Source: Verrucomicrobiota bacterium (GTDB taxonomy: Bacteria; Verrucomicrobiota; Verrucomicrobiia; Limisphaerales; UBA1319). From it: DNA of 64,000 nt. Made by a program: the position numbers and the translations under genes. Where the stretch lies: NCBI GenBank assembly GCA_022709905.1, contig JAKLHY010000024.1:1-64000 (forward strand), read 5' to 3'. Numbering within the stretch: the stretch's first letter is position 1; every line of letters starts with the position of its first letter. Below are positions 1,882 to 55,622 of the stretch, in pieces. Below the pieces are notes generated by a model. The model searched no databases. It had not been told where the DNA came from and was given only the letters and a program-made list of their open reading frames with translations.

Positions 1882-2520
1882 TCAAATCTCATACAGAGTA
1901 CGAGCCAGCCGATCCGTCCGGCTGTTGACGCCGGTGGCCTTGGGCAGGCAGATATCAAACAGCGAACATTCCTCGCAGGCCCGTCTGAATAATGCAGACG
2001 GCATAACCGTTGATCTCAAAAGCGCGTGCAGGTCGCGGGCAGCCGCCTCCGTTTTTTTCCGCAATTCCGGAGTGAACTCGACCTCGCGGCGGCGTTTGCT
2101 ATCGGCGTGAAAAATCGCGCCCCGGGGGATCGACAATTTGAACATTTCTTCCAGGCACAGCGCCTGGGCGCAGACCTGGACGTCGTCGTTCTCCCACTGA
2201 CGGCGCTTGCCGAGCTTAAATTCCACGGGAAAGAGTGAGCCGTCGGATCGTTGTTCCACGATGTCGCACTTGCCCGAGAGGCCGAGGCGTTCGGACCAGA
2301 CCGGCAAGGCGCGGAGGAGTAGGATTTGAGATTTCAGATTTGAGATTTGAGATTCGTAGCCGGACAGGTCGGCGTGCTCGTGGACGATGTCGCCGCGCAA
2401 GGTGTGCTGGTTGGCCTCGCGCGAGCCCTCTATCAGCTTCAATGCCGCTCGCCGCGGACAGTAGAGGAAATCGTTGAGGAGGGATAGAGGTATGGGATCG
2501 TATGTTGTCACCAGAGGCAT
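1882..2520 (-). CDS. cas4: CRISPR-associated exonuclease Cas4 (type I-C)
   Basis: A 212-aa RecB-family nuclease that trims prespacers and helps select the PAM. Visible features are the first cluster Cys in LYCPRRAAL, the catalytic Asp in GKCDIVE, the EFK motif, a QVCAQAL segment, and the C-terminal cysteines in CEECSLFDIC that would complete a 4Fe-4S cluster. It overlaps the VapC stop by 13 nt, which implies translational coupling to the toxin gene. Oddity: about 25 nt of a heptad-type repeat encodes an in-frame SQISNLKSQI insertion around residues 57-66, before the conserved RALPVWSERLGL stretch. Confidence 0.95.
   Translation of the reverse strand: MPLVTTYDPIPLSLLNDFLYCPRRAALKLIEGSREANQHTLRGDIVHEHADLSGYESQISNLKSQILLLRALPVWSERLGLSGKCDIVEQRSDGSLFPVEFKLGKRRQWENDDVQVCAQALCLEEMFKLSIPRGAIFHADSKRRREVEFTPELRKKTEAAARDLHALLRSTVMPSALFRRACEECSLFDICLPKATGVNSRTDRLARTLYEI
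2324..2356. repeat. Heptad-type GAGATTT repeat inside cas4
   Basis: About four imperfect copies of a 7-nt unit (GAGATTT or CAGATTT) lie in tandem within the coding sequence. Similar AT-containing heptads sit at junctions in both cas operons: near 1874-1888, 3262-3292, 4165-4200, 56363-56390 and 57281-57303. Here the repeat is in frame and simply lengthens a loop of Cas4. Confidence 0.6.
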
Positions 2521-3292: not shown

Positions 3293-4156
3293 TCACAGGA
3301 TTTCGAGCAGTTCAATTCCCGCAGGCAGATCGTCTCGATTGATCTTCAAGTGCGGCTGGTAGTCGGCAAAATTGCGCGCTGGCGCTGCGTCCTTCGGCCG
3401 CCCAATTGCAACCCGTTCGAATAGCTTGTGCGCGGGGGCGTTTCCGAGCGCAGTCTGATGCTTAAAGACGATGAGTTTCTGGGGGGCCATCGTGCCACGC
3501 GAGGCGGAACGATCGTGGTCAAACATCTGGGTGAGCGCATCCCATAATAACTTGAGATCGTCTTCGCTGAAGCCAGTTTCCGTGGCGAGATGCGCGCTGA
3601 TGAAACCGTGGCATCGATAGAGACCGTACGGAATGAGGTTTTTGCGGCCCATGGTTTGATTGGGAGAGTCGGCCTCCTTCGCTTCGGTTACAGCCATGCG
3701 GGTGATGCTCAGATCGAGCGGCAGGATGGGATCAATACTACGGCTGAAGCTCAACTGGACCGGACCCCGCACCTGGCCTGCGTTTGCTCCGGTGGACATA
3801 ACTGCGCCGAAAGTGCGGACGTCAAAGTATCGTTTGCACATTTCCGCGCGGGCGGATTGCACTTGTTTGCGGTCGGCGGTTTTCTTCTTGCCGTCCACGT
3901 CATTGCCAACAGCCTTGTGGCCTTCGAGAATCTTGTCGTTCAAAACCGAACCCTGCTGGACAAAGATGTCGAAGGGCGGTTGTGCGTTCTTGGCAAGAAG
4001 GACAAAGTTCCGTATCTTTCGCTTGAGGCAGACATCGGAGACGAGACCATGCATGTCCTGCGGATCAATGCGCGGGGAATTGGCGGCGTCGGGATCGCCA
4101 TTAGGGTTTCCGTCTTTGCAGTCGAAGAGATAAACGAAGTCGTAACGATGGTTCAT
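3293..4156 (-). CDS. cas7c: Cas7 backbone subunit (Csd2/Cas7c)
   Basis: A 287-aa RAMP protein with the Csd2 hallmark DCKDGNPNGDPD near residue 13 and the glycine-rich stretch TGANAGQVRGPVQ. Several copies form the helical backbone of the I-C Cascade along the crRNA. It follows cas8c by 51 bp and is the last effector gene before the toxin-antitoxin insertion. Length is normal for the family. Confidence 0.96.
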   Translation of the reverse strand: MNHRYDFVYLFDCKDGNPNGDPDAANSPRIDPQDMHGLVSDVCLKRKIRNFVLLAKNAQPPFDIFVQQGSVLNDKILEGHKAVGNDVDGKKKTADRKQVQSARAEMCKRYFDVRTFGAVMSTGANAGQVRGPVQLSFSRSIDPILPLDLSITRMAVTEAKEADSPNQTMGRKNLIPYGLYRCHGFISAHLATETGFSEDDLKLLWDALTQMFDHDRSASRGTMAPQKLIVFKHQTALGNAPAHKLFERVAIGRPKDAAPARNFADYQPHLKINRDDLPAGIELLEIL

Positions 4157-4207: not shown

Positions 4208-4609
4208 TTATGCGCCAGCCGGATTCGCATTGGCTTCAGCTTCCTTTCGTTCCGCCGAGCGGCGGCGGTATTCAGCTTTCTGGTGGTAGTAACCGAGGGC
4301 GAAACGACCCTGGCCTTCAAGATCGAGCGTCGCGGGAAAGGCATCTCCCAGCGCGTTGGCAATTGCCTCGAAATCCTTGGAGACATTGCCCGCCACGCCA
4401 CCTTCGGCTTTGGCAAGGTGGAACTGCGCATTGCGGAACAGGCGACCCATCACCAGTGCCGGTGTGGTACTGGCGCTGGCATAATAACGCTCGACCACGC
4501 CGGCGTTGACACTGCCGAGCGCGAGGTATTGGAGACGGTCAAAGACTGCGAACAGGCGACCGCACAGGTAAGCGGGGTCGTGGGATTCAGGATTCAAGCA
4601 TTCTGTCAT
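4208..4609 (-). CDS. cas11c: Probable Cas11c small subunit from an internal start in cas8c
   Basis: I-C systems are known to make a Cas11 small subunit by internal translation of cas8c. Here an in-frame ATG at 4609 opens a 133-aa helical product starting MTECLNPESHDPAYL. The preceding DNA is unusually AT-rich for this gene and carries GAAAG about 10 nt upstream as a weak ribosome site. Size and position match the known Cas11c products. The internal start is inferred, not proven. Confidence 0.6.
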   Translation of the reverse strand: MTECLNPESHDPAYLCGRLFAVFDRLQYLALGSVNAGVVERYYASASTTPALVMGRLFRNAQFHLAKAEGGVAGNVSKDFEAIANALGDAFPATLDLEGQGRFALGYYHQKAEYRRRSAERKEAEANANPAGA

Positions 4610-5986
4610 GGTGTAGTCTTTCGTTTGAGTATTATTGTTTTTTGAATTGGAAGAGCGGAGCAGGCATGCCTTGACGAGCGCAAGCCGGGCAACAATAGCG
4701 GCTTTCCGTAGCGCATCTTCGCCTTTCGGCTCGATTTGCTGTCGTTTCAAAGCGGCTGCGAGCACGGATTGCGGGAGTGGGGCACCGCGCAAGGCGGCAT
4801 GGAACAATTGTGTTGAAACCTGTGACGGTAATTCGTCCAGTTCCTTGCGAACCATGCCATAAAGCAGGGCGTAAAATTTGAAGTCATGCTTGATGCCCAC
4901 ACCGTCCGGTGCGACAATGCTGAGGTCTTCAAACCATTTGGCGATGTGTTGACATACTTCGGGCACGGTGCTTTCAAGCCAGTCACGCACCATGACGCGA
5001 GCGCCGTTGCCCGAAAGGCTCAAGGCGTAGTAGGCGTTTTCGTTGAAAGTGGCGGGTGGTTGGCCGGCATGGACGGATTTTAGCAGGTTGGCGACAGCAT
5101 TCTCATCCGCGTTCGCGAGAATGTCTATTGGATCGTAATCCAGCGGCTTGCGCGTCCAATGTAGATGGACGGTGTTGTTGAACACTAGTTTTTGCGCGCG
5201 GCTATTCTCGATAAGGGCATTCAACGCGGAACGAATCTTCAACTCAGCCGGAGCCGACAATGCAGCGTTTTGCGCCTGTTCCAGGCCGAAGGAGCAGAAC
5301 GAGTCTTTGTCGAAACTGATGAGGTTTGTGCCGGTTGCGAGACCTCCCGGAACACCTTTGATCTTTTCGGTGGTATCGAGCGTGTCGGCCAGGATACCAG
5401 TGGCAACACAGATCCGGCGACTCCGGGCTTTTACGCCAGTAATCGCCTGCCTGCGGCGGTTGCGCCAGAATGCCCTGAGGTTTTCCTCGTCGAGGAGGCT
5501 CGCTCCGTCCACGGAGAACGTCGTGTTGTCGGAAGGTTTGGCTTTGGCGGCCAGCAGCTGGCGGTGCAGTTCGGCGAGACCGGCCTCATCACGCAGGAAC
5601 GTGAGGATGGACTGCAACCGCGGGGATTCATCCGGACAAGCCGCAGAGGCTTCTTCAAGGAGTTTTTGGAAATAGGCATGCTGAACACGTCGCGCTTCCG
5701 CCTTCTCCATGGCCTTCCCATCGAGTAGCAGGATCGCTCGTTCCAACGTGTCGCAGAGGAAATGCGATTTCGTGCCTTGGTTCAGCTCATTGGGAGAAGT
5801 GAAAGGGCGAACGAGCACTCTGGGGCGGGGCTTCTTGTCGTCGGGATTTTCCAGCAACGGAATGGGGCCCCCGGCGAGTTTGCCGTTCTGGTCGAGCGGA
5901 ATGAGCCAGCGAACCGCGACTGTTTCAAAATCCGCGTCACCGAGTTGCTCCCGCTCGGCGTAGCCAATGAGGGCTTGGAGCATCAT
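4208..5986 (-). CDS. cas8c: Cas8c large subunit (Csd1)
   Basis: A 592-aa protein with the Csd1 N-terminus MMLQALIGYAEREQL. Later motifs such as SFDKDSFCSFGLEQAQNA and YYALSLSGNGARVMVRDWL are typical of Cas8c. It recognises the PAM in I-C Cascade. Its start overlaps the end of cas5 by 4 nt. Near residue 455 there is a low-complexity stretch, SNSKNNNTQTKDYT, followed by an internal Met; the C-terminal 133 residues from there probably also make the separate small subunit Cas11c. Confidence 0.95.
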   Translation of the reverse strand: MMLQALIGYAEREQLGDADFETVAVRWLIPLDQNGKLAGGPIPLLENPDDKKPRPRVLVRPFTSPNELNQGTKSHFLCDTLERAILLLDGKAMEKAEARRVQHAYFQKLLEEASAACPDESPRLQSILTFLRDEAGLAELHRQLLAAKAKPSDNTTFSVDGASLLDEENLRAFWRNRRRQAITGVKARSRRICVATGILADTLDTTEKIKGVPGGLATGTNLISFDKDSFCSFGLEQAQNAALSAPAELKIRSALNALIENSRAQKLVFNNTVHLHWTRKPLDYDPIDILANADENAVANLLKSVHAGQPPATFNENAYYALSLSGNGARVMVRDWLESTVPEVCQHIAKWFEDLSIVAPDGVGIKHDFKFYALLYGMVRKELDELPSQVSTQLFHAALRGAPLPQSVLAAALKRQQIEPKGEDALRKAAIVARLALVKACLLRSSNSKNNNTQTKDYTMTECLNPESHDPAYLCGRLFAVFDRLQYLALGSVNAGVVERYYASASTTPALVMGRLFRNAQFHLAKAEGGVAGNVSKDFEAIANALGDAFPATLDLEGQGRFALGYYHQKAEYRRRSAERKEAEANANPAGA

Positions 5987-6699
5987 GCCGCACCTCCGAG
6001 TTGTTGTTTCATTTCGTTCCAGTCGGGGACGTTCACAATCCCGTCTTTGATTCTGGCGGGGAACAAAGTGATCCGTGGGTCGGGCTTTTCCACCTTGCCG
6101 GGCAGTTGGTCCTTGGACACATCGAGGTTGAACACGTCGTAAAGCATGAGGCCGAGGTCGGTGTCGGGATTGAGGCCGGGGGCGACGCGCATGGCGGATT
6201 CGTCAGCCAACTCGAAATGCGCAGGGAATTCACGGCAGCCGAAGCAGGGTTGGGCGAAGCATTGGCCCTTCTCCGCACGGCGTTGGAACATGGCGAGATA
6301 CTTGACGGGGGTGTCGTCGCCGTTGTCTTCGTCGCCGGCCGGAACGCGACGCGGCAAGCCGGCCAGCGGGGTCAGATGCAAACTGGCTTCGATGACGTAT
6401 TCCACGTCGCGCAGGGCGAGCGTGTTGCGCTGGGTGCGGTCATCGTCGGCCAGCAAGGGTGCTGGATTACGCGGCGAGAGGCGGGATTTGACCTCGTTAC
6501 GCCGGAAAGCGAGAAAGCGGATGGGTTTCTTGACGGCGATGCGCCGGATGCGCCAGCGGAATTGAGGCTTGTATAGAATGGCCTCGAGCAAGCCGCGGGC
6601 GGCGCTCGGGGTGATAACGGCGTAGCTCACGCGTTCCACTTTCATTTCGGGCCGGGTGAAACAGGCGAGGTCGCCCCAGGCGCGGAGATGGATGGTCAT
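5983..6699 (-). CDS. cas5c: Cas5c (Cas5d) crRNA-processing endonuclease
   Basis: A 238-aa RAMP protein which, in I-C systems, replaces Cas6 and cuts the repeat. Typical segments are seen: ITPSAARGLLEAILYKPQF with the conserved Tyr (about residue 43), FRRNEVKSRLS, and RRAEKGQCF followed by the GCREF motif. In the TPVKYLAMF segment the lysine is followed by Tyr; the structurally studied Bacillus halodurans enzyme has Lys-His there. It starts 13 bp after cas3. Confidence 0.94.
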   Translation of the reverse strand: MTIHLRAWGDLACFTRPEMKVERVSYAVITPSAARGLLEAILYKPQFRWRIRRIAVKKPIRFLAFRRNEVKSRLSPRNPAPLLADDDRTQRNTLALRDVEYVIEASLHLTPLAGLPRRVPAGDEDNGDDTPVKYLAMFQRRAEKGQCFAQPCFGCREFPAHFELADESAMRVAPGLNPDTDLGLMLYDVFNLDVSKDQLPGKVEKPDPRITLFPARIKDGIVNVPDWNEMKQQLGGAA

Positions 6700-6712: not shown

Positions 6713-9007
6713 TCATAGGCAATAGTTTGCTGCGTCTAGATGGCCAAGGCCAAGGTCTTCGTCGTAATCGGAATTCCAAACCCAGAAGTCCCAATCCTCG
6801 GCAGGCTGGTAGAGGTAGCCTTTGGCCTGTGCGTCGAAGAATTCGCCCTGGTAAAGATTCACGGAGTAACACTGGGCTTCGCGGCATTCGGCACCGGTCA
6901 GGTGTTTCTGGACGCGGAGCTTTTCAGCCAGATCCGTGCCCCGCTTCCATTTCACGAGCACGGCGCGCGTTTCGTTGCCGACCAACTGACATTCCCGCGC
7001 TGCCTTTGGGAAATTGAATTCCTGGCAGGCGGCGAACACCGGATCGTTCTTGAAGGATTCCGGTCCGAGCAGACCGTAGAGTTCAGCAAAGTATCTGGCG
7101 TAAAAGGACGGCTGGTGAATGCGCGACTGCGCCTGGTCGAACCGGGAGAAAAAGCTTTCCGTGATCTTCATGACTTGTTCGTAACCTTTGGGTAAATGAC
7201 CGCCGTCCTTGGGCCGGAACACGGTCACCGGGCAAGGACTAGTGTGAAGCCCCTCGCGGTTGCAGCGGCCGGCGGTTTGGATGATGGAATCCAGCGGGCC
7301 GAGCGCGCGAAAGGCGACGGGGAAATCTACGTCCACGCCCGCTTCGATCAGTTGTGTGGAAACCAACCGGCAGGATTCGCTGATGCCGGGATCAAGCCGG
7401 CGGCGGATTTCCTCGAGCTTTTCCTGACGGTGCGCCGGGCACATCCGGGCCGAGAGATGAAAACAGGCGGACGGTTCGGTTTTCCGCACCTGTTTGAATA
7501 ATTCGCGGGCGTCCCTGGTGGTGTTAACTACGCACAGCGCCTGCGGAACGGCGGTCAGTTTCGCCGCAAGTTCGGGCCAGGCGATTTCTTCCTGCTGTTT
7601 CGGGAGAATGATGTTTGTCCGCCGCAACGTTTCAGCCATTGCGCCGGGATTGGACGAGATTTCAACGGGGGTCCAACCATACGGAAGCGCATTTCCGGTG
7701 GAGGCGAAAGCCGGTTGTGTGGCTGTCATGAAAACAGCCGTCACGCCGTAATCGCGGACAAGCAGGCTCACGCTGGAAAGAAGCGACGGCACGAGGCAAG
7801 TGGGCAGTGTTTGGACTTCGTCGAAGAGAACAACAGAACGACCGATGTTATGCAGCTTGCGGCAATCCGAGGGGCGATTGCTGAAAAGGCTTTGGAAAAA
7901 CTGGACGTTGGTGGTGACGACCAGCGGAGCGGCCCAGTTTTCCGCCGCGAGCCGCGCGCGACGCAACCGTTCCTCCTCTGCGTCGCGGCCCTGGTCTTCC
8001 TTTCGCTCGCGTGGCGCGACAGCGCTGTGATGTTCAAGCACGCAGTCGGGGCCGAATTCCAACTCGAACAACTCGCGATAGACCCGGGCGGTTTGCTCGA
8101 TGATGCTAGTGAACGGTATGACCACAATCACCCGGCGGAAACGGCGCGGATCAGCCTCCGGCACCCGGGCGTTGTGGTGAACGATGTGTTGCAGGGCGAA
8201 GGCCAGGGAAGACAGAGTCTTGCCGCTGCCTGTGGGCGCGGTCAGCGTGAACAGGCCCGGCGGCTTGAAGGCGGCCTCTATACAATCCTTGAGTAATTGT
8301 TGGCGGAGCGTAATGACCGCTCCGCTTCCGGACTTGGACGTCAGATGATCTTGAAGGATTTGCAGGGCGCGCTCCGGTTGAAGCCCTGGCGTGCGACGTT
8401 CAGATGTTTGGACCGGATTGAAATGCGCCTCCGTGTCGAGAAAGTCGGCGTCAACGAGGCAGCTAAATATCATCCTCGTCCGAAGAGATTCCTCAAACCA
8501 CTGGTCTTTTTGAATTGGACGGGGTGAGTAATGCGGCAACTTCAGTCCATCCCGCTCAAACCGTGATAACAACGTGCCTGTATCCTCCGGGCATTGTCCG
8601 GTCAATTCAAGCCGTCGGGCAGAGTCGCCGAAATCGGCGACCGTTGTCTTCAAAGGTGTTCCCGCCTCGCCATCGTGCAAGGCTGGGATGCCAGTGTGGT
8701 GTCCGTCAGCCGCAAAGGCCACGGTCAAGGCTTTCAACTGGGCCGCATACGCTGCTCCGGCGGCCCAATGATTCAAGCCGTGGATCGCAGGATTGCGGAG
8801 ACGTGATAGAAATCGTTCCGCATACTTTCCCAAGTCATGGAGCAGTCCGGCAATTTGTGCCTCTTCGTCCAAGCGCAACGGTTCCGCAAATTTCTTCGCT
8901 AGCGCGGAAACATTGCGGAGGTGTGTGGAAAGTCGTTGCCAGTGGTCCAGGTCCGGATCACGTGTGCCGTTCGGCAATTCTGCCGTATGCGCGTAGAATC
9001 TTATCAT
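6713..9007 (-). CDS. cas3: Cas3 nuclease-helicase (type I-C), HD-helicase fusion
   Basis: A 764-aa protein and the first gene of the I-C operon. The N-terminal HD nuclease motif is LLHDLGKY (residues 55-62), with a later His in LNHWAAG and DGHHTG. The SF2 helicase part has Walker A APTGSGKT, the DEVQ box LFDEVQTLP, the SAT-like FMTATQPAF, and a C-terminal motif VI, QTAGRCNREG. It unwinds and degrades the target strand once Cascade is bound. The start is ATG at 9007, about 74 bp downstream of a palindrome shared with the I-E cas3 gene. Confidence 0.97.
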   Translation of the reverse strand: MIRFYAHTAELPNGTRDPDLDHWQRLSTHLRNVSALAKKFAEPLRLDEEAQIAGLLHDLGKYAERFLSRLRNPAIHGLNHWAAGAAYAAQLKALTVAFAADGHHTGIPALHDGEAGTPLKTTVADFGDSARRLELTGQCPEDTGTLLSRFERDGLKLPHYSPRPIQKDQWFEESLRTRMIFSCLVDADFLDTEAHFNPVQTSERRTPGLQPERALQILQDHLTSKSGSGAVITLRQQLLKDCIEAAFKPPGLFTLTAPTGSGKTLSSLAFALQHIVHHNARVPEADPRRFRRVIVVIPFTSIIEQTARVYRELFELEFGPDCVLEHHSAVAPRERKEDQGRDAEEERLRRARLAAENWAAPLVVTTNVQFFQSLFSNRPSDCRKLHNIGRSVVLFDEVQTLPTCLVPSLLSSVSLLVRDYGVTAVFMTATQPAFASTGNALPYGWTPVEISSNPGAMAETLRRTNIILPKQQEEIAWPELAAKLTAVPQALCVVNTTRDARELFKQVRKTEPSACFHLSARMCPAHRQEKLEEIRRRLDPGISESCRLVSTQLIEAGVDVDFPVAFRALGPLDSIIQTAGRCNREGLHTSPCPVTVFRPKDGGHLPKGYEQVMKITESFFSRFDQAQSRIHQPSFYARYFAELYGLLGPESFKNDPVFAACQEFNFPKAARECQLVGNETRAVLVKWKRGTDLAEKLRVQKHLTGAECREAQCYSVNLYQGEFFDAQAKGYLYQPAEDWDFWVWNSDYDEDLGLGHLDAANYCL

Positions 9008-9080
9008 GCTTGGTCTGAACTGTTCATTTTCGGCTTTGATTTCATCGCCTGAAAGTCATTTGTTTTGAATGATCTTAGCA

Positions 9081-9110
9081 GGGGGGGTGTGACAAATACG
9101 GTCACTCCCC
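9081..9110 (-). promoter_or_regulatory. GC-rich palindrome upstream of I-C cas3, shared with the I-E operon
   Basis: On the plus strand GGGG-T-GTGAC and GTCAC-T-CCCC flank a short loop containing AAATACG. The core CAAATACGGTC is identical to the core of the palindrome at 49079-49107, upstream of the I-E cas3. Both face their cas3 gene the same way. The arms differ but remain complementary. It is a likely operator or 5' UTR hairpin. Confidence 0.6.
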
Positions 9111-9265
9111 TAAATTTCTTTCCGATTTTTTCGGGACCACTACCAGAAGCAGCACATCCATTTATACCATTGGTTTTGAAACAGATGCGCAGCTCTTGAC
9201 GCGATATGCGGCTGATATTAACCTTGTTTGCTGGTCGCTTGGCGGCTGGCATCCTGTCAATAGAA

Positions 9266-48036: not shown

Positions 48037-48148
48037 AAACCGATGGGTCCCAACAACTGGCGAAGCCTTCCGAGCAGTTTTTTGTCGAGACTCTTCTCAT
48101 CGGTGCGAATGTCGATTGGCATTCGGCTTGCTGGATTTAACCTTCTCT

Positions 48149-49012
48149 ATGGCAAGAAGTAGAAGAAGGAAAAATGATCCGTTGGAACTGATTGCCCCCA
48201 TTGCGGGTTTAGTGATGTTGGTAGGAATGGTCTCGCCCAAAGCCCGTGAGGCCATCTTTGCCGTCAGCATCGCCGCCTTCTGGCTCATGGGTATATTCCT
48301 GGTAGGATTGATTTGCTTCGGCATTTACAGATGGACGACACGATCGCTGAGGTCAACTTCGAGCCGCTCACTCCCTGAATCATCTTCCGATGAGACAAGT
48401 TCACTTTCTGTGATCGTCCCTGAAATGGAAGTTCCGAACCAAACTCGAAACACCCGGCAGAAGTCAATAGCTGAGCTTCTGGAGCAACTCCACTCTATCG
48501 ATTGGTTCCAATTTGAGAAGCTGGTTGCGCTGACTTATCGGAAACTGGGCTACATGGTGACCCGGAGAGGCGGAGCAAATCCTGATGGGGGCATTGACCT
48601 CCTGATTGAAAAGGAGGGGCAGCGGACAGCGGTCCAGTGCAAACACTGGAAAGCCTGGAAAGTGGGGGTCAAGGCGGTGCGTGAATTCCTGGGGGCTCTG
48701 ACCGATGCTGGAATTCAGAAAGGGATTTTCATTACGCTTCGAGGCTACAGTTCTGAGGCAAGGCAATTGGCCGAAAAGCATGGCATTGAAATCGTCCATG
48801 AGGTGGGGCTGGCGAAATTACTTGAGGCAACAGACGCCAATTACGATCCTGAAACGCTGGCGATCCTCCGGGATACATCCAAGTACTGTCCGAAGTGCGA
48901 ACGGGAGATGGTTTTGCGGACCGCCGCTAAAGGTGCGGGAGCAGGCAAACAGTTCTGGGGTTGCTCAGGCTACCCGAGGTGTCGGTATACGATGCCCGTG
49001 TCGGAAGACTAA
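48149..49012 (+). CDS. Membrane-anchored Mrr-type restriction endonuclease with zinc ribbon
   Basis: A 287-aa protein. Two membrane helices (ELIAPIAGLVMLVGMV; AAFWLMGIFLVGLICFGIYR) precede an Mrr-cat nuclease: FEKLVALTYRKLGYMVTRRG, NPDGGIDLLIE (catalytic Asp) and AVQCKHWK (QxK), then GAGKQFWGCSGYPRCRYT, a topoisomerase-type zinc ribbon. Such proteins are linked with restriction of foreign DNA. The shorter start at 48149 (MARSRRRKNDP) gives a basic N-terminus before the first helix. It stands directly before the I-E operon on the same strand. Confidence 0.85.
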   Translation: MARSRRRKNDPLELIAPIAGLVMLVGMVSPKAREAIFAVSIAAFWLMGIFLVGLICFGIYRWTTRSLRSTSSRSLPESSSDETSSLSVIVPEMEVPNQTRNTRQKSIAELLEQLHSIDWFQFEKLVALTYRKLGYMVTRRGGANPDGGIDLLIEKEGQRTAVQCKHWKAWKVGVKAVREFLGALTDAGIQKGIFITLRGYSSEARQLAEKHGIEIVHEVGLAKLLEATDANYDPETLAILRDTSKYCPKCEREMVLRTAAKGAGAGKQFWGCSGYPRCRYTMPVSED

Positions 49013-49078: not shown

Positions 49079-49107
49079 GGGGGTTGGACCGTATTTGACC
49101 AACCCCC
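49079..49107 (+). promoter_or_regulatory. GC-rich palindrome upstream of I-E cas3, shared with the I-C operon
   Basis: GGGGGTTGG and CCAACCCCC form a perfect 9-bp inverted repeat around ACCGTATTTGA. The 11-nt core (CAAATACGGTC on the reverse strand) is the same as at 9081-9110. It ends 20 bp before the cas3 ATG at 49128. The longest open frame begins inside the palindrome, which argues for the later start codon. Confidence 0.6.
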
Positions 49108-49127
49108 TATGCTTAAATCTTGAGGTA

Positions 49128-51752
49128 ATGGATCCGGACAACATTCATTTTTGGGCGAAGACCACGAAGAATGCCGAGGGAATAGATATGCCCGGCATTT
49201 CTGTCTATGACCACTGCCTCAATGTCGGTTGCGTGGCGGAGGCGCTGATCGCGGCGTTGCCGCCACGCGTGCAAGCCTTGCTCCCGCCGGGCGCGGTCAC
49301 ACTGGCGGCGCTGCATGACATCGGGAAGATCACGCTTGGCTTCCAGGCCAAGTGTCCGATGTGGCTGGAAGACGACCGGTTGCCGAAGTTCTCACCGGGC
49401 GAGATTGTGCTATCCGTTTCCGATCATGCTTTGGTCAGCCAGGTGTTCCTCCAAAATTCGCTTCAGCCTGCGCCTGCCCGGCTCTGGGCCGCTGCCGTTG
49501 GTGCGCATCATGGTCGGCCGAAAGGTAGAACTGCGCAGTTACCCAAAAGCACGCCGGAAGCCCTCGCCAAATGGGCGGAGCTTCATCGCGGCAAACTTGC
49601 TCGGGAACTTATTTCACTATTTGGCGCTCTACCTGACTTACCGCCTGATCCTCGCTTCGTTCCGCATCACTCCGACCTGTGGCTTCTCGCAGGACTCATA
49701 ACTGTCGCGGACTGGATTGGTTCGAACGAAACGTGGTTCTCACCCAAACGTGGGCTGCCACAGGAAGTTGCCCGGCAGCAGGCGCGGAGCGCGCTGGTTC
49801 GGATCGGCTGGCCGGGTGGGCGGCTCAAGCAGACCGACTTTGCGACCGCATTCTTCGCCGGACAGCAAACCCCTTTCATCCCGAATCCGCTGCAACAGGC
49901 CGTGGTGGAGGCCGCACAAGCTCCCGGCGTCATCATCATCGAAGGCCCAATGGGCTGCGGCAAAACCGAGGCAGCCCTGTTCGCCGCACAGCAATGGATC
50001 GCTGTCGGCCCCAACCACGGAATCTACTTTGCGCTCCCCACCCAGGTGACCAGCAACCGGATTCACAAGCGCGTCGAACAATTCCTCCGCAATACGCTGG
50101 TGGACGAAGCGCCGCTGCGACTGGCCCACGGAAACGCCTGGCTAGAAGACGATTTCGATCTTCGCCTCCGGCCGACGTTCCACTGGCGATCCGATAGAAG
50201 CAGTGACGACCCCGCCGAGAGTGTTCGTGAATCCCGCTCTTGGTTTGCCTCGGCCAAACAAGCACTACTGGCCACTTACGGTGTGGGCACAATTGACCAA
50301 GCTCTTCAAGCCGTGGTGGCGGTGAAACACTTCTTTGTCAGGCGTTTTGCCCTCGCCGGCAAGGTCGTCATCCTCGACGAAGTCCATTCCTACGACATCT
50401 ACACCGGCACGCTCGTCGCGGCGCTCATCCGCGAGCTGGTGAATCTCCGCTGTTCTGTCGTCGTCCTGAGCGCCACGCTCACCGCCGCCCGGCGCAGGGA
50501 ATTGCTCAAGGGAGCGGGTGTAATCGAAACCGATTCGCCGCAAACCTACCCGCTCATCACCACAGGCGTAAACGGAAACGCCCGACACTTCGCCCCTGAC
50601 TGGAAATCGAAACGCCGCATCGCTCTGCGTCCGGCTGTTATCCCCGAAGCCGAAACTGTTGCCGAGCTTGTCCGGCGCGCCGAGGCCGGTCAACAGGTTC
50701 TCTGGATTCGCAACACGGTGATCGAGGCGCAGGAAGCATTTCGAGAGGCTTGTTGCTCAGCGCGTGAATGCCTCGTGCGCGTCGGCCTGCTGCACAGCCG
50801 GTTTCCCTTTCAACGCCGCGCGCAACTTGAGGACGACTGGCTGGAACGGCTCGGCAAAAACCGTCCCGCCGATGGGCCAGGCTCCATCCTCATAGCAACC
50901 CAGGTCGTGGAGCAAAGCGTGGACATCGACTTGGATTTCATCATCTCCGACCTCGCTCCCACCGATATGCTACTTCAGCGCCTCGGACGCTTGTGGCGGC
51001 ACGAACGTCCCCACCGCCCCACCTCGCAACCGGAGTTTTGGATTCGCCTACCGGAGTTGCCTGCCAATGCGGATGCCGGCGCATTGAAAAAGTCCTTCGG
51101 ACGCAGTGCCCGCGTCTATGCGCCTTATGTCCTCTTGCGGACGATGGATGTCTGGCAATCGCAAACGGAAATCAATCTCCCAGCCGATATCCGCCCACTG
51201 CTCGAAGCCACCTACGCCGAACCGGACAAGAACGAGGCAGACGCCTGGAGGGAAGTCCATGCGGAATTGGAAACCGAGAAGGCCACCCTTGCCGCCAATG
51301 CTGCTGCCGCCACCCGTGTGCTGGGCAATCCCGTGCTCGCCGACAAGGAGGAAATCCTCACCCGGCGCAAAGGCCCTCCCACCACACCGGTCATCCTGCT
51401 TCGCTCCATCACGGGCGGGCTCAACGGCCTCACCACGCTCGCGGCGCTTGATGGCTCGCGCGTCGAAATAAGCGAACACGAATGGCGGCGTGCCCATGCC
51501 CGCTTCCTGCTCGAATGGATGGTGCGCGCCCCGCATTGGATGGTTCCCGCGAATGCGCCCCGCCCGCGATGGCTCGACCTGCACGGTCCTTCCGATGCTG
51601 TGGTCGCCGTGGTGCGCGACGACGGGCGCTGCCTTTTCGGCGAAGACGTTTCCCCGATGACATACGATCCGCGCCTCGGCCTTTTTGCCGAACGCGCTCC
51701 ACAACCCGCACCGCAAACCTGGAAGGACGACGACGATGAATTTGACTATTGA
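49128..51752 (+). CDS. cas3: Cas3 nuclease-helicase (type I-E)
   Basis: An 874-aa protein. HD motif LAALHDIGKITLGFQ and NVGCVAEAL-type N-terminus (residues about 20-90); helicase Walker A EGPMGCGKTEAALF, DEVH box VVILDEVHSYD, motif III VVLSATLTAARR, and motif VI LLQRLGRLWRH. It begins with MDPDNIHFWAKT, the usual I-E start, with GAGGT close upstream. Target-strand unwinding and cleavage are expected. It overlaps cse1 by 17 nt. Confidence 0.97.
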   Translation: MDPDNIHFWAKTTKNAEGIDMPGISVYDHCLNVGCVAEALIAALPPRVQALLPPGAVTLAALHDIGKITLGFQAKCPMWLEDDRLPKFSPGEIVLSVSDHALVSQVFLQNSLQPAPARLWAAAVGAHHGRPKGRTAQLPKSTPEALAKWAELHRGKLARELISLFGALPDLPPDPRFVPHHSDLWLLAGLITVADWIGSNETWFSPKRGLPQEVARQQARSALVRIGWPGGRLKQTDFATAFFAGQQTPFIPNPLQQAVVEAAQAPGVIIIEGPMGCGKTEAALFAAQQWIAVGPNHGIYFALPTQVTSNRIHKRVEQFLRNTLVDEAPLRLAHGNAWLEDDFDLRLRPTFHWRSDRSSDDPAESVRESRSWFASAKQALLATYGVGTIDQALQAVVAVKHFFVRRFALAGKVVILDEVHSYDIYTGTLVAALIRELVNLRCSVVVLSATLTAARRRELLKGAGVIETDSPQTYPLITTGVNGNARHFAPDWKSKRRIALRPAVIPEAETVAELVRRAEAGQQVLWIRNTVIEAQEAFREACCSARECLVRVGLLHSRFPFQRRAQLEDDWLERLGKNRPADGPGSILIATQVVEQSVDIDLDFIISDLAPTDMLLQRLGRLWRHERPHRPTSQPEFWIRLPELPANADAGALKKSFGRSARVYAPYVLLRTMDVWQSQTEINLPADIRPLLEATYAEPDKNEADAWREVHAELETEKATLAANAAAATRVLGNPVLADKEEILTRRKGPPTTPVILLRSITGGLNGLTTLAALDGSRVEISEHEWRRAHARFLLEWMVRAPHWMVPANAPRPRWLDLHGPSDAVVAVVRDDGRCLFGEDVSPMTYDPRLGLFAERAPQPAPQTWKDDDDEFDY

Positions 51753-53196
51753 CCCTTGGATTCCAGCGCTTCGTGCCGATGGCCGCCGCGAACTGTTCAG
51801 CCTCCAAGACCTGTTCGCCCAGGCCCACAACCTGCGCGACCTCGCCGCCAAGCCGCACGAACGCATCGCCCTCATGCGCCTGCTGCTCTGCATCACCCAG
51901 GCCGCGCTCGACGGCCCGGCGGACGAAGCGGCATGGGAAACGTGCGAACCGCTCATCCAACCGCGCGTCCGCGACTATCTGGCGAAGTGGAAGGCGGCGT
52001 TTGAATTGTTTGGAGACGGTCAACGGTTTCTGCAAGTGAAACCAGGGAGTATCGCCGATCCCGCCCCAGTCATGGAGAACGAAGGCATCACGCGACTGAA
52101 CCTTTGTCTCGCATCTGGAGAGAGCAACGCCACCCTCTTTGACAATTCAGCTTCGGATGCAAGAGAATTCAGCGCAGCCCAAGCAGCACTATACCTCCTG
52201 ACCTACCAGTGCTATTCACCATTGCTTGGGCGCGGCTATAAGGGGCGTTCTCCGTGTGCTGACGAAAGCATGCTCCATTCGTTTCTTCTGGGCGAAAACT
52301 TGCTTGGAACGATCCACCTGAACCTCTTGACCTTGGAGACAATCACCGACTGCTATTCACCATCAGGTGCAGGCCGCCCAGTTTGGGAGATCAAACTTAC
52401 CAAGAAGCCTTCAAATACAGAATTGCATGCCCTTACTCAAAGCTACCTGGGCCGTCTTGTTCCGCTCGCGCGAGCCATTTGGCTGGATTCTTACAGGACT
52501 ATGACCCTCGCGAACGCACTGGTTTACGAAGGCATGGAGGACTCGGGCTTTCGGGAAGCTACTGCAACGGTCGTCGCAAGGAACTCCAAGGTTGTGCCTT
52601 TGAGCATCCGCGCAGACAAAGCGATTTGGCGCGAGTTGCCCGCGATCTGCGTCAAGGGTCGGCAGACGGACGGCGTCTCAGGCCCGCTGGCCTTGCGCAA
52701 TCCGATTCCCGATTCCGGAATTACCATTTGGTCAGGTGCGATGATCTTCCCGAAGAAGAACGCGAAGATCGAGGATGTGGTTGAATCCACCTACTCAATC
52801 CCGCCGGGCATGTTCACTGAGTTGGGCCGTGCCGCGTATGAACGAGGCATCGCCCATGCGGAGGAGCGCGAGGGCGTCTTGATTCAAGCGGTCAAAACCT
52901 ACGCCGCCACCTTGAAGATTGGCTCTCCCGCCTACGATCGCGCCCGACAACAGTTCTGGACACGCGTCGAACAACACCTGCCTGCCCTCTTTGCTCTCGC
53001 CCGCAACCCGGATCTTTTCGCCGACATCCCCAGCAGCGATTGGGGCATTGCTGTCACCGATGCGGCGCTCGGAGCCTATGAACAATCTTGTCCGCGCCAG
53101 AGCCCACGCCAGATCGAAGCCTACGCGCTCGGCTTGCGTAAACTTGCCTATCGTCCGAAACCAAATCCTGAACCCAAGTCCAAAGCCCATGAGTGA
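51736..53196 (+). CDS. cse1: Cse1/Cas8e large subunit (type I-E)
   Basis: A 486-aa protein with the CasA N-terminus LTIDPWIPALRADGRRELFSL, conserved regions RDLAAKPHERIALMRLLLCI and VYEGMEDSGF, and a C-terminal helical bundle. It recognises the PAM and recruits Cas3. It starts within cas3 (17-nt overlap) and overlaps cse2 by 8 nt, so expression is coupled. Length is usual for the family. Confidence 0.95.
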   Translation: MNLTIDPWIPALRADGRRELFSLQDLFAQAHNLRDLAAKPHERIALMRLLLCITQAALDGPADEAAWETCEPLIQPRVRDYLAKWKAAFELFGDGQRFLQVKPGSIADPAPVMENEGITRLNLCLASGESNATLFDNSASDAREFSAAQAALYLLTYQCYSPLLGRGYKGRSPCADESMLHSFLLGENLLGTIHLNLLTLETITDCYSPSGAGRPVWEIKLTKKPSNTELHALTQSYLGRLVPLARAIWLDSYRTMTLANALVYEGMEDSGFREATATVVARNSKVVPLSIRADKAIWRELPAICVKGRQTDGVSGPLALRNPIPDSGITIWSGAMIFPKKNAKIEDVVESTYSIPPGMFTELGRAAYERGIAHAEEREGVLIQAVKTYAATLKIGSPAYDRARQQFWTRVEQHLPALFALARNPDLFADIPSSDWGIAVTDAALGAYEQSCPRQSPRQIEAYALGLRKLAYRPKPNPEPKSKAHE

Positions 53197-54443: not shown

Positions 54444-55622
54444 ATGAAACTGATTGAACTCCACATCCTCCAATCGTTCCCTGTCTCCTGTCTGAACCGT
54501 GATGACGTCGGCTCGCCCAAGACTGCCGTCTTCGGCGGCGTCAACCGCGCCAGGCTTTCCAGCCAGTCGCTCAAACGACCGATTAGACTCGCACTTCAAG
54601 AACAAGCGCCCTCCATATTTGCAGGCGAGCGCAGCAAGCTGATCATCATCCCACTGGCAGATCGGATCGAAAAGATCGGCGTAGAACGCGAACGCGCATT
54701 GGAGCTTGCCCGCGCTACGGGGGCTTATTTGGCAACATTGGACGAGAAAGCTGCCGCCAAGGGAGTCGAGAAAGTGAAAACCCTCATGTTTCTTTCTCCG
54801 GCGGAACTCGACAGCATTGCCAAAGATCTCGCTCATGCGTCGAAAGCAGCGCCCCCGGCCGCATCACAGCCCGACGAATCTGGCGCGAAGATAAAGAAGA
54901 AGGGAGACAGCAGTCTGGACGTAGGCAAGATCGCAGCAAAAGCCTGTAACAATGTGGCGCTTAAAGACGCGGCAGACATCGCTCTGTTCGGTCGTATGGT
55001 CGCGAGTGATCATTCCATTACGGTGGAAGGGGCCGCCATGTTTGGCCATGCTCTTTCCACACACAAGGCCGACAACGATCTGGATTTTTTTACAGCCGTT
55101 GATGACCGTCAAAAGGAAGACCCCACCGTCGGCGAAGAAGATCGGACAGGCAGTGGAATGATGGGAACTTTGGAATTCTCCTCCGCTGTCTACTACCGCT
55201 ACGTGGCACTAAACTTGGATCAACTATTCTACCAGACAGATCGAGACGGCAAACCAAGCGCGAATCTGAGCAGTCTTCTTGGGGCGGATCACCTGTCAAT
55301 TCGGCAGAAGATCGTCGACGCCTTTATTCGCGCCACGCTCATGACCGTTCCCGGCGCGCGGAAGAACTCCATGAACGCCCACACCCTTCCTGGATGCGTA
55401 ATCGGAACATTCAAGTCCGCCGGACAACCCGTCCAGTTGATCAATGCCTTCGAAACGCCCGTTCGCCCGAAATCCGGACTGATGAATGCCTCTATCGAAG
55501 CCCTGAAGGCTCATCACGCCCAACTGAAGGAAACGTGGGGTATTGCCTGCGATGAGGAAGTGATCCTGCCCAACAAGAACCTCAACGCCTTCTGCGAGGC
55601 CCTCACCAAGCATGTTAGCTAA
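54444..55622 (+). CDS. cas7e: Cas7e backbone subunit (CasC/Cse4)
   Basis: A 392-aa protein with the CasC N-terminus IELHILQSFPVSCLNRDDVG, SPKTAVFGGVNRARLSSQSL and the core AALFGRMVASDH-type segment (ADIALFGRMVASDHSITVEG), then SAVYYRYVALNLDQL. Six copies form the crRNA-binding backbone. A variable lysine-rich insert (KAAPPAASQPDESGAKIKKK) lies in the middle at about residues 133-152. Follows cas6e by 38 bp with no clear terminator. Confidence 0.95.
   Translation: MKLIELHILQSFPVSCLNRDDVGSPKTAVFGGVNRARLSSQSLKRPIRLALQEQAPSIFAGERSKLIIIPLADRIEKIGVERERALELARATGAYLATLDEKAAAKGVEKVKTLMFLSPAELDSIAKDLAHASKAAPPAASQPDESGAKIKKKGDSSLDVGKIAAKACNNVALKDAADIALFGRMVASDHSITVEGAAMFGHALSTHKADNDLDFFTAVDDRQKEDPTVGEEDRTGSGMMGTLEFSSAVYYRYVALNLDQLFYQTDRDGKPSANLSSLLGADHLSIRQKIVDAFIRATLMTVPGARKNSMNAHTLPGCVIGTFKSAGQPVQLINAFETPVRPKSGLMNASIEALKAHHAQLKETWGIACDEEVILPNKNLNAFCEALTKHVS

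Follow-up and report, generated by a model that had tools for sequence, protein, structure and literature searches.

A shared promoter palindrome probably places cas3 genes of Verrucomicrobiia within a DNA-damage response

Outside a few model species, little is known about what turns on the expression of CRISPR-Cas systems in nature. In the 64,000-nucleotide stretch of a Verrucomicrobiota contig analyzed here (the window), the first-pass annotation had pointed to two palindromes sharing an exact 11-nt core, one just 5' of a type I-E cas3 gene and the other just 5' of a type I-C cas3 gene, which raises the question of what two unrelated CRISPR types have in common at this position. We consider it likely that the palindrome is the site of a homodimeric, DriD-like activator of the WYL family that would co-induce both cas3 genes and, in relatives, recA, dinB, integrase, Wadjet and BREX-like genes. 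On this account, cas3 is probably switched on within a DNA-damage response.

The two boxes and their cas3 operons

Both palindromes were found where they had been reported, with the core CAAATACGGTC on the minus strand at 49079-49107 and on the plus strand at 9081-9110; read in the direction of cas3, the core is GACCGTATTTG at both boxes. Brought into register with the I-E copy, the I-C palindrome, given as 9081-9110, corresponds to a box at 9083-9111. Matches were scored with R1, a covariance model of the hairpin, and with R2, a second model that includes the -10. The start site of the I-E cas3 gene is predicted at about 49125, and the features of the two operons are the following.

49079..49107, plus strand: putative operator box of the I-E cas3, GGGGGTTGG-ACCGTATTTGA-CCAACCCCC; GAC-N7 core centred near -32; R2 49.2 bits, E 5e-10
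49110..49118, plus strand: predicted extended -10 of the I-E cas3, TGCTTAAAT, in the conserved register
49128..51752, plus strand: type I-E cas3, 874 aa; probable ATG about 3 nt past the predicted +1, leaderless or nearly so
51685..53196, plus strand: cse1/cas8e, next in the I-E operon (PF09481)
54444..55622, plus strand: cas7e (CT1975-like), I-E operon (PF09344)
9083..9111, minus strand: putative operator box of the I-C cas3, minus-strand reading AGGGGAGTGACCGTATTTGTCACACCCCC; R2 48.5 bits, E 8.5e-10
9072..9080, minus strand: predicted extended -10 of the I-C cas3, TGCTAAGAT; predicted +1 at about 9065
6713..9007, minus strand: type I-C cas3, 764 aa, about 58 nt past the predicted +1
5983..6699, minus strand: cas5c, I-C operon (PF09704)
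4208..5986, minus strand: cas8c (Csd1), I-C operon (PF09709)
3293..4156, minus strand: cas7c, I-C operon (PF05107)
1882..2520, minus strand: cas4, I-C operon (PF01930)

The box is separated from the ATG by 21 nt at the I-E cas3 (ATG at 49128) and by 76 nt at the I-C cas3 (ATG at 9007). Just 5' of the I-E operon and on the same strand, the window also encodes an Mrr-type restriction endonuclease with a topoisomerase zinc ribbon (48116-49012).

Searching the window for the core, exact or with one mismatch, returned two sites, both of them the boxes; taken alone, this is weak evidence, since shuffled sequences are expected to hold 0.78 such sites and two or more occurred in 16 of 100 shuffles. 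The exact 11-mer occurs six times in the whole assembly (8.17 Mb, 347 contigs), against about four copies expected by composition-free arithmetic. The full pattern of G-run, core and C-run was found at four places, against none for a reversed-pattern control, namely, at the two boxes of the window, 5' of a degraded I-E cas3 (contig C323) and 5' of a short I-C cas3 fragment (contig C20). The earlier claim that the boxes lie just 5' of cas3 and in the same orientation to it is true for all four of these best genome matches, which comprise two I-E and two I-C genes. Every cas3 gene detected in the genome has a box, and an HD search revealed no further clear cas3. The top four R1 matches (E 1.6e-5 to 3.3e-5) each precede cas3, while the fifth (E 0.16, C308:43177) adjoins the gene of a WYL-domain regulator. 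R2 gave seven matches, among them the four cas3 boxes (5e-10 to 4e-8) and two that flank the C308 WYL gene (1.5e-7 and 9e-4). The linkage of the four boxes to cas3 is far beyond chance, and a chance origin was rejected on the basis of this linkage and of the empty reversed-pattern controls. The species' own recA has no box, and the regulon may therefore be centred on CRISPR in this species.

Two of these loci show further features. On C20 (L001, 84-371 and 822-968), a promoter almost identical to that of the I-C operon precedes a fragment of about 95 aa of I-C cas3, and the contig also contains a group II intron-like match (RF02003). On C308 (L160/L125, at 41610 and 43177), box and leader are duplicated on either side of the WYL gene and are followed by GGCCGGTGGCC-type simple repeats.

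Layout of the box and its promoter

The operator consensus spans 29 bp, GGGtNg-GAC-N7-GTC-cNaCCC, and an extended -10, TGnYAnnnT, lies beyond it at a fixed distance. In a GAC-anchored alignment of 59 instances, the palindrome is accompanied by the pattern T32 G33 n Y35 A36 nnn T40, which is independent of how the instances were found and which places the conserved -10 about 6 nt past the end of the palindrome. G9, A10, C11, G19 and C21 are invariant or almost so in 35 to 59 instances, in a set that was itself anchored on GAC. Of 126 instances for which the palindrome was the sole search criterion, 66% have YAnnnT at offset 35, compared with about 0 to 7% at any other offset, and ATG is nearly absent from box positions 40 to 46 and jumps at positions 47 to 54. 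With T35 set as -12, the palindrome extends from -46 to -18, its centre falls within the -35 slot and +1 corresponds to position 47; the jump of ATG at 47 to 54 is thus expected from a start site near 47 with short leaders. The -35 slot showed no -35 consensus in the same 126 palindrome-selected instances (about 0.8 to 1.4 of six TTGACA matches), and G33, that is, -14, is present in 60% of instances. Transcripts predicted to be leaderless or nearly so include those of a WYL gene of G254 (start at 47), the I-E cas3 of G085 (48) and the I-E cas3 genes of G057 and of the window (50).

A conserved -10 on the 3' side of the palindrome, together with the onset of ATG at the predicted +1, indicates that the palindrome is, as judged from these sequence features, untranscribed promoter DNA. 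The first-pass annotation had suggested either a common regulator or an RNA structure, and of the two it is the regulator that found support. A hairpin in the cas3 leader, with a conserved loop and a covarying stem to which a protein or a small RNA would bind, agrees with the conservation of the asymmetric loop ACCGTATTTG and with the significant covariation of the stem, which DNA palindromes can show likewise. However, the fixed-distance extended -10 located 3' of the hairpin and the start codons that begin at the predicted +1 would put the hairpin upstream of the transcript, and none of the Rfam family models matched the motif, the sole Rfam match being the unrelated group II intron on C20. 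We therefore regard an RNA hairpin as very improbable.

As had been claimed, the arms differ in sequence yet stay complementary; the double-changed cells number 47, compared with 17.7 in shuffles. This covariation exceeds what an operator with additive half-sites needs, and its possible causes are a symmetric indirect readout, template-switching repair of quasi-palindromes or a role of the extruded hairpin. The asymmetric core CGTATTT occupies the -35 slot, which may explain why the core is conserved despite a symmetric operator.

Box targets in related genomes

The strict pattern matched in 5 of 196 genomes of relatives, the genome studied here (G000) counted, with no control match. R1 gave matches in 38 of the 320 genomes of the order and R2, at E 0.05, in 93 of 384 genomes of the class, other orders included. 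When 84,980 species were scanned with the exact pattern, eight contigs were returned, four from Verrucomicrobia/Verrucomicrobiia, one from the same order (G104) and three from elsewhere, the three outside the group being single matches with poor R1 scores.

The box precedes cas3 in eight genomes of six families: type I-E in G000, G057 and G085, and type I-C in G000, G057, G135, G236, G260, G019 and G208, some of these I-C genes being assigned by similarity only. It also precedes recA, with profile confirmation in G159, G169 and G026 and by similarity in G060 and G311 (from a targeted recA set), and genes of DinB/IMS polymerase, with a profile match in G176 and by similarity in G165, G175 and G161 (the last two from a lexA-fetched set). 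Family f25 repeatedly shows a recA box that keeps the register but has another spacer, GGACAACAAATGTCC, and that lies about 700 nt 5' of the RecA domain. Profile matches identified the following additional targets.

G133: integron integrase (IntI)
G203: ERCC4 nuclease operon
G063: SprT-like gene
G121: Wadjet jetA (JetA)
G116: BrxC-like (BREX-like) operon
G252: DUF3631 gene

Part of the recA, WYL and dinB cases come from sets fetched by gene or through lexA, and the rest from model searches that took no account of gene content. Among the targets, the most frequent is an uncharacterised "QLEL" protein of 65 to 97 aa ("QLELGF...RAxWWFxxMRxAV...RPEQ"), possibly a small protein induced by damage, which is encoded directly 3' of the box at L291, L234, L287, L260, L297 and about 20 other loci. 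Boxes in G131 (L237) and G201 (L064) stand before similar-looking proteins of about 400 aa, for which no Pfam or PADLOC match was obtained and which possibly represent an undescribed defence gene; the G131 box adjoins a WYL gene. In G057 (L088, C76:7000-14500), the box and the 5' end of an I-C cas3 are present in three tandem copies, about 1.8 kb apart and with the same upstream flank.

A regulator site dedicated to CRISPR was rejected, since the box is nearly cas-only in the genome studied here but has other targets in relatives. The expectation that the motif would occur mainly before cas or defence operons thus held for this genome and failed in relatives, where boxes precede recA, dinB, WYL genes and small ORFs. 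Many copies in unrelated regions, raised at the outset as the mark of a common repeat, were seen in one relative (G071) and were absent from the genome studied here. A mobile promoter or repeat spreading without a common function would account for the near-identical promoter copies found before HTH-like and other small ORFs, more than 10 in G071 (L083-L087, L103) and seven in G087. Most genomes, however, have one to three copies with diverged arms and flanks and a constant register, the targets are functionally coherent and control-pattern matches are nil, making such a repeat extremely improbable.

A candidate WYL regulator and its relation to known damage regulons

At least 12 genomes, from several orders, have a box next to a WYL gene, and in several genomes the box sits between such a gene and a divergent one. 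A box lies within 350 nt upstream in 6 of 30 WYL loci, against 0.22 in shuffles (maximum of 2 in 300); the corresponding count for lexA was 0 of 30 loci, against 0.16 expected. Model searches that were not aimed at WYL reached WYL neighbours in three genomes of other orders (G539, G454 and G554) and likewise in G254, G243 and G261. The box-linked proteins have the architecture HTH-WYL-WCX (winged-HTH, WYL, WCX), their HTH matches being near or below the Pfam cut-offs and HTH_11 weak, and a WYL profile run against the PDB found PafBC and DriD. In a small tree, the box-linked WYL genes fell outside the clade of a rho-linked WYL gene (L124 and relatives). The best candidate among the three WYL genes of the genome studied here is the following.

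C308, 41863-42870, minus strand: candidate WYL regulator gene

Both C308 boxes point away from this gene. Because the WYL family is near-universal in the order (176 of 196 relatives), the co-occurrence of box and WYL genes cannot single out WYL, and two box-bearing metagenome-assembled genomes (G112 and G151) had no WYL relative at E 1e-40.

The assignment draws on a likeness to DriD, an activator of the WYL family in Caulobacter crescentus that senses single-stranded DNA (ssDNA) and recognizes ATACGAC-N7-GTCGTAT; this site overlaps the -35, its distance to the -10 does not vary, and its promoters have a poor -35 and a conserved G-14 (PMC12340889). DriD sites are located at didA, bapE, recJ, dnaG and driD/CCNA_03891, and through the one in the intergenic region of driD the divergent operon is activated (PMC12340889). 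The box shares with them GAC-N7-GTC, the overlap with the -35, the fixed -10 distance, the weak -35 and the G at -14, as well as an intergenic position beside a gene of the regulator family and DNA-damage targets. Unlike DriD sites, it has outer arms of the type GGGtNg/cNaCCC instead of ATAC/GTAT, a difference that could be a lineage-specific readout, as well as the conserved asymmetric core CGTATTT, and its targets, in the phylum Verrucomicrobia, include recA, dinB, CRISPR cas3, Wadjet and BREX-like operons. The assignment to WYL rests on gene adjacency and on the DriD analogy, and WYL genes could adjoin boxes merely as targets, so that the protein acting on the box might be an activator from another family that responds to DNA damage or stress. 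We consider this unlikely, as half-sites, spacing, -35 overlap and -10 distance are all those of DriD, and WYL genes recur beside the box across several orders.

It also appears quite unlikely that a LexA-type SOS repressor acts on the box and that cas3 is an ordinary SOS gene. The recA, dinB and integron integrase targets are classic SOS genes, and lexA is present in 106 of 196 relatives and in the genome studied here. However, LexA is without a match in about half of the relatives, the boxes found within lexA loci mostly belong to adjacent dinB genes, and repression would call for a promoter with a -35 of its own, which the box promoters do not have. In the order, the lexA promoters (loci L190-L219) bear other dyads, TACTGT-N8-ACAGTA-like in 10 of 30 and TGTTC-N4-GAACA in 4 of 30, while the box is at none of the 30. 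The CTGT-N8-ACAG-like and TGTTC-N4-GAACA dyads make LexA a poor candidate, and they indicate that this single order contains two or more types of LexA motif. The second dyad was reportedly described by Erill et al. in 2016 as the LexA motif of Verrucomicrobia; the box resembles it in being a putative DNA-damage operator at SOS genes of the same phylum and differs from it in half-sites and spacing.

Other regulators offer partial parallels to the proposed WYL activator. The RecA-NDp promoter of PafBC, with TTGTC upstream of TAnnnT, presumably resembles the box promoter. PafBC, a WYL-family activator of DNA-damage genes in mycobacteria, is a heterodimer or a fusion and has a non-palindromic site (PMC6789036); the regulator proposed here would likewise be a WYL-family activator of damage genes, whereas the box is palindromic. 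BrxR and CapW are reported to be WYL repressors of BREX and CBASS operons (PMC9122589, PMC9122588). They have in common with the proposed regulator its type and its place at defence operons, but they are local and encoded with one operon, whereas the box is common to unrelated operons and has an activator-type layout. In the CapK/CapS system, defence operons are induced by ssDNA through a kinase and a STAS-domain repressor encoded upstream of the operon (PMC13373217); DNA-damage control of defence operons, as proposed here, would be shared, while the protein family is different.

What the sequences show directly is the box with a -10 in fixed register, the genes that it precedes, the repeated adjacency of WYL genes and the presence of other boxes at lexA. 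We infer that a WYL protein would bind the box, that it would activate rather than repress and, by analogy with DriD, that ssDNA would be its signal. Damage, stalled forks or phage attack would give rise to ssDNA, which would switch on a DriD-like protein with winged-HTH, WYL and WCX domains. Its dimer would touch the GAC and GTC half-sites, one to each side of the -35 slot, flanking sigma region 4, and would recruit RNA polymerase to promoters that have a good extended -10 and no usable -35. As a result, cas3 and the operon behind it would be induced, together, in relatives, with recA, dinB and other targets. Since Cas3 itself generates ssDNA, interference could amplify its own expression if the ssDNA-sensing reading is true. 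A wider proposal, that an ssDNA-sensing WYL activator constitutes a LexA-independent damage regulon throughout the Verrucomicrobiia, which has repeatedly recruited cas3 of two unrelated CRISPR types, Wadjet and BREX, seems to us evenly balanced. The type of regulator and site is already known from Caulobacter; its presence in Verrucomicrobia and a target set containing cas3 were not found in the literature searched, nor was a link between cas3 and a WYL damage activator in the open literature searched.

A common damage-type promoter at I-E and I-C cas3 genes of several families leads to a testable prediction, namely, that one activator induces cas3, recA and dinB, and the 42-nt signature makes it possible to search for a DNA-damage regulon in a phylum for which genetic tools are scarce. 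One signal would tie adaptive immunity, Wadjet, BREX and integron recombination together and, if this is true, the CRISPR nuclease would be made while DNA is being broken.
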